Shown: one piece after another, positions 40,165-44,633 of the stretch
How the letters are laid out: every line of letters starts with the position of its first letter
Numbering within the stretch: position 1 is the stretch's first letter
Notes under the pieces: generated by a model
Databases searched by the model: none
The model's input: only the letters and a program-made list of their open reading frames with translations
What the model was told of the DNA's origin: nothing
Position numbers and translations under genes: made by a program
Assembly: GCF_020193655.1 (NCBI RefSeq)
Contig: NZ_JADYVE010000014.1
Span: 1-64,000 of the forward strand
Source of the DNA: Ensifer sp. IC3342
Lineage (GTDB): Bacteria > Pseudomonadota > Alphaproteobacteria > Rhizobiales > Rhizobiaceae
DNA: 64,000 nt
Direction: 5' to 3'

Positions 40165-40267
40165 TGCATTATTCCTAAAATCGGAATCGATCTAAGGACA
40201 AAATCATGCAGCAACTCAAAGTGGTACCGGGACCTTTTGCGCGTCCGATTGGACGCGCGGCGCTGCA
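40165..40267. repeat. RIME-like repeat, inverted orientation
   Basis: AAATCGGAATCGATCT..., then CATGCAGCAACTCAAAGTGGT and GCGCGTCCGATTGGACGCGC; the order and sequence match the copy at 8303. Confidence 0.75.
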
Positions 40268-40284
40268 GCGTCTTCAATTGCTCG

Positions 40285-40579: not shown

Positions 40580-40669
40580 CTACAGCGCCGCGTGCCTTAT
40601 CAGACGCGCAAACGGTCGCTGTAGCACTTTGAATTGCTACATGTTTCTTCTGAGGATGCATGCAGTAGG
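40580..40669. repeat. RIME-like repeat, direct orientation
   Basis: CTACAGCGCCGCGTGCC...CAGACGCGCAAACGGTCGCTGTAG, then ACTTTGAATTGCTACATG and GATGCATGCAGTAG. Confidence 0.8.
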
Positions 40670-40870: not shown

Positions 40871-41452
40871 TTATTTGCTCGACTCTGGATGAGGCAACAT
40901 CTTCGGTGGCTCTTCCAGGAAAGTGTAACGTCCTTCAGGGCACTTGACGTCCGGGTTCACCGGGTGGAACAGGCCAAGCGGGTTCGGCTTGAAGATCCAC
41001 GCATGCAGGTCGTAATGGTGGAGCTGCGCCGGCAGAAGCGGTTCATGCCCCTCCATAGGGCCGTCGAAGGGATGGCCGAAGAGCTTGGGATTCGGCTTGA
41101 CGCCAGTGGCGAGCGGGATCAGCCATTCGACGGCAACGAGCTCCAGCTTGTCGCCACTTGGTTCATACACCAACAAGGTCGGCTTCATTGGATCGGGCTC
41201 CGGACCGATCAGCGCGGGGTTCAGAAAGTGCACGCCCATCGTGCCCGTCGCATACGTGACGCATCCCAATGTCGAGAAATAGCCGTCGTGCACAGCGGCA
41301 ACGGGGTCCTTGTATTTTTCAAGTGCTGATTTCAGCTTCTCCAACTCGGGCGGAAGTGGTTCGTTTGCATTCACCAGCGGTGCAAACATGAAAGAAGCGC
41401 CCGCCGCGAGACAGACTGTCCGCAGCAAACGCAGTACCGAAGACATACGCAT
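40871..41452 (-). CDS. secreted hypothetical protein
   Basis: 193 residues from the ATG at 41452, chosen for the GGGAGGA ribosome site 7 bases upstream. Signal peptide of about 29 residues (LLRTVCLAAGASFMFAPLVNA). The mature part contains DGYFSTLGCVTYATGTMGVHFLNP, GPMEGHEPLLPAQLHHYDLHAWIF and PNPLGLFHPVNPDVKC, a conserved pattern of unknown function. The His/Glu-rich HEPLLPAQLHHYDLH segment could bind metal (inference). Confidence 0.75.
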   Translation of the reverse strand: MRMSSVLRLLRTVCLAAGASFMFAPLVNANEPLPPELEKLKSALEKYKDPVAAVHDGYFSTLGCVTYATGTMGVHFLNPALIGPEPDPMKPTLLVYEPSGDKLELVAVEWLIPLATGVKPNPKLFGHPFDGPMEGHEPLLPAQLHHYDLHAWIFKPNPLGLFHPVNPDVKCPEGRYTFLEEPPKMLPHPESSK

Positions 41453-41640
41453 GGCTCGTCCTCCCTCGCTCAACTCGCCTCCCGCGAGGAGCATGGACGG
41501 CATGATACAGCGGGCGAGATCGCCGTGCTATTCGCGAAAGGGGATTAGGGGATCGCGCGATTGGCAGCGATCGCAACGGGGCGCGTCTGGACACTCCGGC
41601 CCCGCAATATGTGTCGACAGAACATGCGGCATTCCTCCTA

Positions 41641-41795: not shown

Positions 41796-42240
41796 GTTTT
41801 TGGGGGTTGTCGGCAATGCACGCACAAGAACCTAATTGTTTCAGAGGCAATTTAGGGCGGGGTCCGTTGTCCGCAAAGCAAAGGTCCCCGCCTATGTCGG
41901 GTACCGGACAGGACGCCACGGCAACAAAAAGGCCGGCTGGGCCGACCTCTCGTCGCCACCCCATGCCGCTGCCAGTACATCCGTGGTCAGCGGCACGAGG
42001 GACGTTCTGAAACTGAATGTAGGCGGCGATTATGACAGGGGCAAGTCGGGGTTTCGACACCCTGGCGCCGTCGGCGACCTCCAAGAGGCGACGGGTTTTG
42101 CGGATCTGGCGTCGCGGGATGCCTGACACCGCTCTGGCCGGTCGCCGTTTGCAAGGTCCCCAACGGTCGAGCGCGCAGCCGTTCATCGGAGGTTCAGGCT
42201 CGGTGGCTCAATCTGATAGTCATAGGGGAGGAGTTTGACT

Positions 42241-42540
42241 ATGAAAAGGCTCTTATCCGTCCTCACAGCCGCAGTCCTGGCTGCATCTTTCGCGTTACCG
42301 CTAAACGCTGCGCCGATCTTCGTGCCGAAACCCGATCAAGTACAGACCGGCCCTGTCGAACAGGTCAGACACTGGCGCTATCGCCATTGGCGCGCCGACC
42401 GCCACTGGAACCGGCGCTACGCGTGGCGTTCCTGCCGTTACTACGGCAGGTGCTACCCTCGCCATTACGGGTATTACGGCTACCGTGACTATTACCGCTA
42501 CCAGCGGCGGCCTGGAGTCAGCATCTATTTTAACTTCTAG
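42241..42540 (+). CDS. BA14K-like secreted protein
   Basis: 99 residues from the ATG at 42241 with GGGGAGGAG upstream. Signal peptide of about 24 residues (MKRLLSVLTAAVLAASFALPLNAAP). The mature part is rich in Tyr, Arg and Trp (RHWRYRHWRADRHWNRRY, then many YYGY and RYY), like the BA14K/lectin-like group in Brucella and rhizobia. Function unclear. A GC hairpin follows (42599-42641). Confidence 0.78.
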   Translation: MKRLLSVLTAAVLAASFALPLNAAPIFVPKPDQVQTGPVEQVRHWRYRHWRADRHWNRRYAWRSCRYYGRCYPRHYGYYGYRDYYRYQRRPGVSIYFNF

Positions 42541-42699: not shown

Positions 42700-42789
42700 T
42701 GGCGGAAGAGGTGGGATTCGAACCCACGGTACGCTTTCACGCACGCCGGTTTTCAAGACCGGTGCCTTAAACCGCTCGGCCACTCTTCC
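42700..42789 (-). tRNA. tRNA-Ser (anticodon TGA)
   Basis: 90 bases with encoded GCCA. GGAAGAG/CTCTTCC acceptor, long variable arm (GTGCGTGAAAGCGTACC), anticodon loop CTTGAAA, T-arm GGTTCGAATCC. Confidence 0.97.
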
Positions 42790-42856: not shown

Positions 42857-43012
42857 GCTACCCAATCATTCGACGGCTGGCTTTTTAGCAGCTTTGATCG
42901 CCGCGTCAACGTGCTCGGCGGCATTCGCTTTGCATACCCGGCATTACGTGTGAATAGAGTTGCAGCGTGATGCCGAGGTGTTTCGCGGAGGCGATCAGGC
43001 GGGTCGCATTCG
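42857..43012 (-). pseudogene. tyrosine recombinase (integrase) C-terminal remnant
   Basis: On the minus strand ATRLIASAKHLGITLQLYSHVMPGMQ reads like the end of a phage-type integrase, with the catalytic Tyr in LYSHV. After a single-base frame change it continues NAAEHVDAAIKAAKKPAVE and stops at about 42857. The segment between LIAS and LGITL lacks the usual SERLGHSS block, so there is also an internal loss. It lies 67 bases from the 5' side of tRNA-Ser. Non-functional. Confidence 0.62.
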
Positions 43013-43127
43013 CGATCATTGCAAGAAGCCATGATAAAACTGAAAGCTGTTCAGTTTGCCCTAAATTCTACGCAAGGACACGCGTGCAGCGCTCTGATAT
43101 TCTGGCGCACCTGGCCGGAGGTGTGCC

Positions 43128-44240
43128 ATGCCAAATCCCAATGCGATTGTTTCGACCCGCATTGATTTCGACCCTCCGCTTGACCGGCCCGCTGCCGAGT
43201 TGCTGCGCGAGGGGCTTTGGGTCGAGCTCGAAGGCGGGCGCCGCGCCCGGCTTGACCCGAGCGATGCCCGATCGAGCGGCTTCTTGCAAGTGCTTGACGG
43301 GCTCGCCAGGCGCAGGGCGCCGGTCTATCTGGAGATCGATCCTAACGGCGGGGCGATCACACGGCTCCTGATCCCGCACGTGACGCGTCCGATGAGCATG
43401 CGTCCGAGCGACCAGGGCTATGAGATCATGCTCGAAAGGTCGCATGCCCGCCACACCCTGAGGCGCGACAATCCCGATTTTGCGACGCTCGAACCATTGC
43501 TGCGCACCGCGCTCGACTCGGGGCAATTGCTGATCGTCACCGAGGATGATGCGCACAACATCATTGACATTCGCACCTACACGCCCGGCCCCGATGACGC
43601 GCCGCTGCCACCTTGGCCCAAACCCGATGTACTGCCGCTCGAATGGCCGTGGTGGAAGCGTCTGCTCGACTGGATCTGGCGCTGGCCGTTCTGGCCCTGG
43701 TGGTGGTTCCGCTGCGTTTCGAAAGCGACTGCCCAGCAGATTTTCGATGCGATGAGCGCGACGACTTGCCCTCCGCTCACGGTGCCGGCACCCTGCATCC
43801 CTTTTCTCTATCCCGATGACGGCTGCTGGGGCCGCGCGCACGAGATGTGCCGGCTGATGATCAACATCGGCCGCAAGCCGCGCAAGGTGTGGATACAGGG
43901 CAGCCTGCACGTCGACACCAAAAACAATCCCAACTGCTTCGTGAACTGGGGCTGGCATGTCGCGCCGACGCTATGTGTGCGCCGAGGCTGGTTCTGGACG
44001 CAGCAGATGGTGATCGATCCCTCGCTCTTCACCACGCCTGTCCCGCAGGCGACGTGGAAGGGCGTTCAGGGCGATCCCAATGCCACGCTGACGCCGAGCG
44101 ACGCCTCGATCTTCTATCTCTGGGGCAACGTGACCGACCCCACTTATGTCGAGACCAACCAGGTGCTCGCCGATTATCGTCTGCAGCTCCAGAGCCGCGC
44201 GATCCAGCACGGCCCGCCGCCCTATGCGAATTGCCCGTAG
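43128..44240 (+). CDS. protein-glutaminase-like domain protein
   Basis: 370 residues. Residues 1-165 form an unrecognised domain. Residues 172-196 are a tryptophan-rich linker, perhaps membrane-contacting. Residues 220-330 match the bacterial protein-glutaminase pattern: DGCWGRAHEMC (Cys233), WGWHVAP (His277), VIDPSLF (Asp297). The His-Asp spacing (20) equals that of the Chryseobacterium enzyme, and Cys-His (44) is close to it (41). Such enzymes deamidate glutamine side chains in proteins. No signal peptide is visible. The start has GGCCGGAGGTG as ribosome site. Its flanks (tRNA-Ser and integrase remnant) suggest acquisition by transfer. Substrate and partners are unknown. Confidence 0.7.
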   Translation: MPNPNAIVSTRIDFDPPLDRPAAELLREGLWVELEGGRRARLDPSDARSSGFLQVLDGLARRRAPVYLEIDPNGGAITRLLIPHVTRPMSMRPSDQGYEIMLERSHARHTLRRDNPDFATLEPLLRTALDSGQLLIVTEDDAHNIIDIRTYTPGPDDAPLPPWPKPDVLPLEWPWWKRLLDWIWRWPFWPWWWFRCVSKATAQQIFDAMSATTCPPLTVPAPCIPFLYPDDGCWGRAHEMCRLMINIGRKPRKVWIQGSLHVDTKNNPNCFVNWGWHVAPTLCVRRGWFWTQQMVIDPSLFTTPVPQATWKGVQGDPNATLTPSDASIFYLWGNVTDPTYVETNQVLADYRLQLQSRAIQHGPPPYANCP

Positions 44241-44633
44241 CGGAGCCACGAATGTGAAAAGAGGCTGCAGGGCCATTCGGCCCGGTAACACCTTGGCATG
44301 GTCGGCGACGAGACAGCTACGCCAACCTTGACGCCCGGTTGAACAAACAACCAAATCTCGCAGTCTTTGCAAGATTTAACGTGCCGGCGCCCGGCGGAAT
44401 TTCTCGCACTCCGCGATGACGCCGAGGATTCCGCACGGCAGGCTCGCGCAGGGGTTTAAACGATTTGTAAACCACAACGGAAGATTTTTGCCGCGCTTCC
44501 GGCTTCCTGTTCGCAATTTTGCCGTCTTGCTGACATGATTAATCGACTGTCTCGTTTCGAGACGCCGAGCTTTCCGCGGGGGCTAGAGCGGATTGTTTTC
44601 GAAATACGGCTTTGCGAACGATATTGGGGACAG
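44241..44633. other. 393-base intergenic region
   Basis: This lies upstream of rlpA. An ATG at 44535 lies in frame with rlpA, but that part lacks the lipoprotein signal layout. No repeat or gene was recognised; the promoter of rlpA is presumably here. Confidence 0.45.

Follow-up and report, generated by a model that had tools for sequence, protein, structure and literature searches.

The stretch analyzed here (the window) comprises positions 1 to 64,000 of contig NZ_JADYVE010000014.1 of Ensifer sp. IC3342 (64,000 nucleotides, forward strand), and the gene under study encodes a protein of 370 amino acids (aa) that resembles the protein-glutaminases (PGs), carries a PG-type pro-domain and appears to lack a secretion signal (Table 1). 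Across 36 pairs of the nine orthologues in the genus, the ratio of mean nonsynonymous to mean synonymous substitution rates (dN/dS) is 0.148, and this purifying selection marks the frame as a real gene and excludes a chance open reading frame (ORF). GC content is 0.59–0.62 across the gene, similar to that of the surrounding DNA; a promoter scan found none, and the two terminator-like sites occur at chance level.

Table 1. Features of the PG-like gene and its immediate surroundings in the window (pLDDT, predicted local distance difference test).
Feature	Position	Strand	Basis
Leaderless pro-PG-like gene, 370 aa	43128..44240	+	ATG start, TAG stop, PF18626, dN/dS 0.148
GGAGG, ribosome-binding-like, 5′ of ATG	43117..43121	+	Sequence reading
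N-terminal extension of pro-domain, residues 1–80	43128..43367	+	Model mc455c4d8f03d, pLDDT 94.9; pro-PG alignments begin at residue 81–82
PG-type pro-domain, oligonucleotide/oligosaccharide-binding (OB)-like barrel, residues 82–157	43371..43598	+	
S105-H106-A107, predicted active-site plug loop, between strands 97–102 and 109–112	43440..43448	+	Conservation; register with T46-A47-Q48 of pro-PG
Trp-rich segment WPWWKRLLDWIWRWPFWPWWWFRC, residues 173–196, possible membrane-interfacial linker	43644..43715	+	
PG catalytic domain, residues 198–354	43719..44189	+	
Cys233, predicted nucleophile	43824..43826	+	Aligned with catalytic Cys of PG; C in 158/159 sequences
His277, triad	43956..43958	+	H in 157/159 sequences
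Asp297, triad	44016..44018	+	D in 158/158 sequences
tRNA-Ser(tga), neighbour	42700..42789	-	338 bases upstream of PG gene
One-gene indel, tRNA-Ser to rlpA	42924..44311	.	Absent at colinear locus of PG-less G004

Residues 202–311 match PF18626 (Gln_deamidase_2) with an E-value of 1.1e-32 and a score of 112.8 bits (cut-off 25), the protein has the PG fold, and all five sequence matches in the PDB are PGs (among them 8z3i, 2.4e-19, and 2zk9, 8.8e-19). Against NF040782, the NCBIfam equivalog of the Chryseobacterium PG, the protein scored 76.6 bits, far below the cut-off of 250; taken with the PF18626 match, this indicates a member of the wider family and a different enzyme from the Chryseobacterium PG. 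The original prediction, made from the sequence alone, had proposed a PG-like protein with a readable Cys-His-Asp triad, and the analysis supports both the fold and the triad. The Cys-His and His-Asp spacings are 44 and 20, and the equivalent residues of the Chryseobacterium-type PG L092 (C177, H218, and D238) are spaced by 41 and 20. The single Cys exception among the 159 fused relatives, P0193, has Tyr at that position, and the two proteins differing in the His277 column, P0211 and P0215, have no PG sequence readable there. Within the genus the PG domain has a dN/dS of 0.107. The protein is probably a protein-deamidating enzyme.

The N-terminal domain had been left unassigned, but structure comparison matches residues 82–157 to the pro-region of pro-PG, which places a pro-domain N-terminal to the enzyme as in the Chryseobacterium-type PGs. 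Nor is the known PG the single-domain enzyme it had been taken for: one report describes it as made as a pro-protein from which the propeptide is then cut off, and gives a 17-fold rise in activity on propeptide removal for the Bacteroides helcogenes PG (PMC13139226). A sequence search of the N-domain against the PDB returned no relevant match, and structural matches to barrel-shaped toxin B-subunits were judged to reflect a common fold rather than kinship. At the predicted plug loop, among 277 sequences, Ser stands at position 105 in 276 (among them all 159 fused proteins and 115 of the 116 separate N-domains), His or Gln at 106 in 272 (H 233, Q 39) and Ala or Gly at 107 in 273 (A 238, G 35); P83 is found in all 277. 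In the Chryseobacterium enzyme the corresponding loop reads LTAQFYEIK in 3a56 and LTQQFYEIK in 3a54; since 3a54 is the A47Q mutant and differs from 3a56 at this one letter, Ala47 is fixed in the alignment, and it is invariant, with the adjoining Gln, in 15 of 15 Chryseobacterium-type PGs. The Ala47 loop reportedly lies across the active site as a substrate mimic, and the A47Q mutant is said to have trapped enzyme-substrate states, for which reason the Gln at 106 in some relatives is notable, within a register uncertain by one residue. The IC3342 protein seems to carry its own inhibitor domain.

Signal peptides were judged by a proxy, the hydropathy of the N-terminus. The start of the IC3342 protein scores 0.41 by this measure, against 2.46–2.95 in 15 of 15 Chryseobacterium-type PGs, bearing out the original claim that a signal peptide is absent, and none of the 159 fused relatives reaches 2.0 (maximum 1.8).

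The architecture had been called uncommon, a description that found no support: a protein search returned 1,509 relatives at E ≤ 1e-3, and the 120 of these that are listed all measure 352–385 aa, share 62–89% identity with the IC3342 protein and carry PF18626. From 61 pattern matches in genome contigs, 47 loci were confirmed, distributed over Pseudomonadota, Actinomycetota, Bacteroidota, Planctomycetota, Acidobacteriota, Gemmatimonadota, Thermodesulfobacteriota, Cyanobacteriota, Chloroflexota, and two archaeal metagenome-assembled genomes (MAGs); many of the 47 are MAGs, which may contain binning errors, and the Cys motif was part of the search patterns. Comparison across the genus, as had been suggested, revealed a patchy distribution, with the gene in nine of 33 genomes including its own, and among 398 sampled genomes of the phylum the N-domain was found in its own genome only, so that the gene is rare when counted by genome. 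The close relatives outside the genus are from Sphingomonas (78 and 74% identical), of which L016 joins the genus on the tree with support of 100/99, a placement consistent with transfer. Of 199 genomes in the family of L018, none had a Chryseobacterium-type PG scoring over the cut-off; of 395 in its order, 24 did.

At five of the 47 loci, in four phyla, the N-domain and the PG domain with its tail are consecutive separate ORFs (Lysobacteraceae L049, Desulfogranum L051, Roseateles L052, Anaerolineae MAG L053, and Phycisphaerales MAG L055). The N-domain (158–178 aa) always comes first, followed by PG plus tail (263–266 aa) after gaps of 49, 2, 15, −1, and −1 bases, with purine-rich sites before the second ATG. 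Such pairs stand at two places in the tail-bearing branch of a 41-row tree, which implies at least two changes of state. A profile of the split-type N-domain retrieved 127 proteins among the best 7,994 candidates scored; of the 120 matches listed, 116 are blank in the column of the catalytic Cys and 100 are 150–180 aa long. Plug and enzyme remain coupled in the genomes: scans found PG in 47 of 47 and one N-domain in 46, always adjoining PG (in the largest genomes, part of the first-look candidates were scored), the exception being L054, which holds only a fragment. N-domain matches in 297 Lentzea-family genomes (10) and 199 Sphingomonas-family genomes (two) all lie within long fused frames, and 10 of these 12 genomes were already among the known loci. 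In the distant relatives with split pairs, the neighbouring genes for putative inhibitor and enzyme are a hint of a self-restrained rather than an ordinary secreted enzyme.

Between pro-domain and enzyme lies the Trp-rich linker, which resembles indolicidin, ILPWKWPWWPWRR (PMC6017362). At least four Trp residues occur in the linker of 141 of the 159 fused relatives (median nine per 50 residues), and its sequence varies more among them than its make-up; residues 158–197 are the least constrained part of the protein in the genus, with a dN/dS of 0.36. We infer a position at the membrane interface. A literature search combining protein-glutaminase with tryptophan-rich found nothing. None of the 141 proteins with a Trp-rich linker extends more than 40 residues beyond the PG domain, whereas 12 of the 18 without one do, 11 of them with a tail of 85–86 residues. 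This aromatic-rich tail of about 86 residues is conserved in L036, L037, and L040–L048 (WFTFGWPA.WHV.WTIMPT..CPG...W.V) and is seen in this set only where the Trp-rich linker is missing. Two larger forms were also noted. A Herpetosiphonaceae MAG (L056, 4658–6796) encodes 713 aa with extra C-terminal regions and a Cys-rich end (HLANCEWV...CHYC), and Crossiella sp. S99.2 (G098) has a second PF18626 domain (C7:164352–164711, minus strand; E 3.1e-15) inside an open frame of 10,354 codons that is possibly a giant multidomain protein.

The PG gene lies next to tRNA-Ser(tga), as had been noted. On one side are genes for a lytic-transglycosylase-like (rlpA-like) protein, a D-Ala-D-Ala carboxypeptidase, thymidylate kinase, and the delta subunit of DNA polymerase III, and further off on the other side is an ABC transporter. 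Seven of the nine copies in the genus are flanked by tRNA-Ser and the rlpA-like gene; those of G001 and G024 are elsewhere, adjoining a BA14K-like gene. All six rlpA loci examined that lack PG at that position (L062–L067, drawn from 30 fetched loci; L064 belongs to G001, which has its PG elsewhere) have tRNA-Ser within 1.3 kb of rlpA and no PG match. The original suggestion of a transferred island found no support: the DNA missing from G004 amounts to 1.39 kb with this one gene inside, although transfer of the gene by itself is plausible. An island or phage origin is unsupported, given the GC content; of 21 stretches of viral contigs that matched the pattern none encodes a relative, phage records yielded no PG relative, and one of 72,556 plasmid records has PG, a Sinorhizobium BG8 megaplasmid with no annotated features in that stretch.

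For the relatives, neighbouring genes were scanned with Pfam in 133 of 315 picked ORFs (90–800 aa, the two nearest per side) at 36 of the 47 loci, leaving aside the Sinorhizobium loci, L032, L043–L046, and L054; the IC3342 neighbours were scanned separately. No Pfam family occurred in more than two of the 133 ORFs (25 of 80 families displayed), and crude ORF clustering over the 47 loci, antisense frames included, gave no conserved operon partner in the first 25 clusters; those shared consisted of PG itself, antisense frames, clusters confined to Lentzea or to Sphingomonas L015 and L016, and coincidences of two to four loci. In PADLOC, which covers known defence systems only, no model matches the 370-aa protein, each matching model accounts for one of the 133 neighbours, and the eight neighbours of the IC3342 gene gave matches to ordinary ATPases only. 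The small aromatic- and Arg-rich protein encoded at 42235–42540 (plus strand), with a signal-like start and no Pfam match, is presumably BA14K-like. As a partner of PG its gene was rejected, being also present in PG-less genomes (G003, G004, and G006 among others) and about 200 kb from PG in G013. Elsewhere in the window, arms of 67 bases at 40202–40268 and 40580–40646 (81% complementary, 311 bases apart) form a dispersed palindromic intergenic element; similar palindrome pieces occur at other loci of the genus, including one just upstream of the PG gene in Ensifer aridi (L012, 9876–9976). A 210-aa ORF at 40871–41503 (minus strand) has no Pfam match.

We consider that the gene encodes a leaderless, zymogen-like protein-glutamine deamidase restrained by its N-terminal pro-domain plug, which would mimic substrate, with a probability of roughly 0.6. 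The pro-domain would keep the deamidase inactive or largely so, its S105-[H/Q]106-[A/G]107 loop sitting over the Cys233-His277-Asp297 pocket in the manner of the Ala47 loop of Chryseobacterium pro-PG. The Trp-rich linker would probably lie on the membrane surface and be the likeliest point at which the plug is cut or lifted, and the freed enzyme might then turn Gln into Glu, either in membrane-proximal proteins or in anything encountered when the cell lyses or makes contact.

A number of observations weigh against this interpretation. With the N-domain alone, Foldseek hits are weak (all at E ≥ 1e-3, and 8z3i at rank 37), the hhalign probability is 17%, and the residue opposite Ala47 may be either H106 or A107. 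Model confidence is lowest in the linker (block-mean pLDDT 50–72 over residues 151–190), and the 18 of 159 fused relatives without it indicate that it is dispensable for the plug-enzyme pair. Conservation of Cys among the 47 loci is biased by the motif in the search patterns, and no activity data were found for close relatives. The uncut B. helcogenes pro-enzyme is already active (PMC13139226), and so a pro-domain need not mean "off". Three of the 116 separate N-domain proteins pass the hydropathy threshold, P0235 with a fragment-like start among them; P0123 and P0133 begin like lipoproteins (IFLGGC) N-terminal to the pro-domain, P0156 has a hydrophobic start, and L053 has a possible upstream start (5′ of 10001) that is likewise lipoprotein-like. 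These signal-like starts suggest that one of the split branches may export its plug.

It is possible, if doubtful, that the protein behaves as a toxin and antitoxin in a single chain, the PG domain as putative toxin acting on the cell's own proteins once the N-domain, a putative antitoxin, is degraded or displaced under stress or by phage. The split pairs would suit this, with the N-domain gene first and the enzyme gene close behind or, in two cases, overlapping by one base, as would the patchy distribution and the lack of a signal peptide by the proxy. The PADLOC results reveal no common defence or mobile context, though, and neither do the phage, viral, and plasmid records, and an ordinary zymogen fits the same facts. 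A catalytically dead relic or a structural protein is very improbable, for the Tyr of P0193 stands against a triad kept in the remaining relatives and the constraint on the PG domain.

A shared digestive deamidase like that of Chryseobacterium, lacking a leader and acting after lysis or via unknown export, is unlikely; the catalytic domain and pro-domain do match the secreted enzyme, no recurrent partner gene was found and a few separate N-domains have lipoprotein-like starts, but the low hydropathy of every fused relative speaks against it, and such a role gives the widespread Trp-rich linker no obvious function. Slightly less likely still is an effector that a non-Sec machine delivers into cells of a host or competitor, where it would deamidate a target glutamine; the original prediction had proposed a deamidating effector or immunity-type protein, which found no support. 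One study classes PF18626 among the deamidase virulence factors and places genes for Dot/Icm type IVb secretion near PF18626 genes (PMC10318531). No Dot/Icm genes were seen among the neighbours scanned here, no secretion or immunity neighbour recurs among the 133 ORFs of relatives, and the IC3342 neighbours are housekeeping and transport genes; this evidence is weak, since effectors can be encoded far from their machine. The lipoprotein-like N-domain starts, the active uncut pro-PG, and the narrowness of the neighbour test somewhat weaken the plugged deamidase and the broader proposal given below, and somewhat strengthen the effector.

A broader proposal is speculative and remains doubtful to us: that cytoplasmic self-restrained deamidases exist across phyla, the propeptide having become a separable regulator, either fused to a Trp-rich membrane sensor or encoded by an upstream gene as a trans-inhibitor, with membrane disturbance or proteolysis freeing the enzyme to deamidate proteins of the cell itself or of an intruder as a stress or conflict switch. 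PGs are studied as secreted enzymes that become fully active only once the propeptide is removed. A widespread leaderless branch with a conserved pro-domain loop, encoded by separate genes in some genomes, supplies candidates for natural trans-acting inhibitor pairs, in which inhibition of the partner by a separate pro-domain protein could be looked at directly. It also raises the question of what purpose such a glutamine deamidase serves in bacteria, possibly also in archaea, and offers many new enzyme sequences for the deamidation of food proteins.

Among the closest known systems is the PG of Chryseobacterium proteolyticum (2zk9, 2ksv, 3a54, and 3a56), which shares the catalytic fold, the Cys-His-Asp triad with its His-Asp spacing of 20, and a pro-domain at the N-terminus whose short loop aligns in the same register. 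It differs in having a secretion signal, of which the IC3342 protein has none by the proxy, whereas the latter has an N-terminal extension of 80 aa, a Trp-rich linker, and a Cys-His spacing of 44 instead of 41. FBPG of Flavobacterium sp. 316 (8z3i) is 24% identical to the IC3342 protein over the aligned part and, unlike it, has a signal-like start and no Trp-rich linker in the alignment. Human NTAQ1, an N-terminal glutamine amidohydrolase, is a distant relative that acts on N-terminal Gln and aligns over the PG domain only. The tail-type PF18626 proteins (Lentzea, Crossiella, and a Methanosarcina MAG) and the split pairs have the same N-domain and PG domain, but in place of the Trp-rich linker they carry the C-terminal tail of about 86 aa, and in five genomes they are encoded by two genes.
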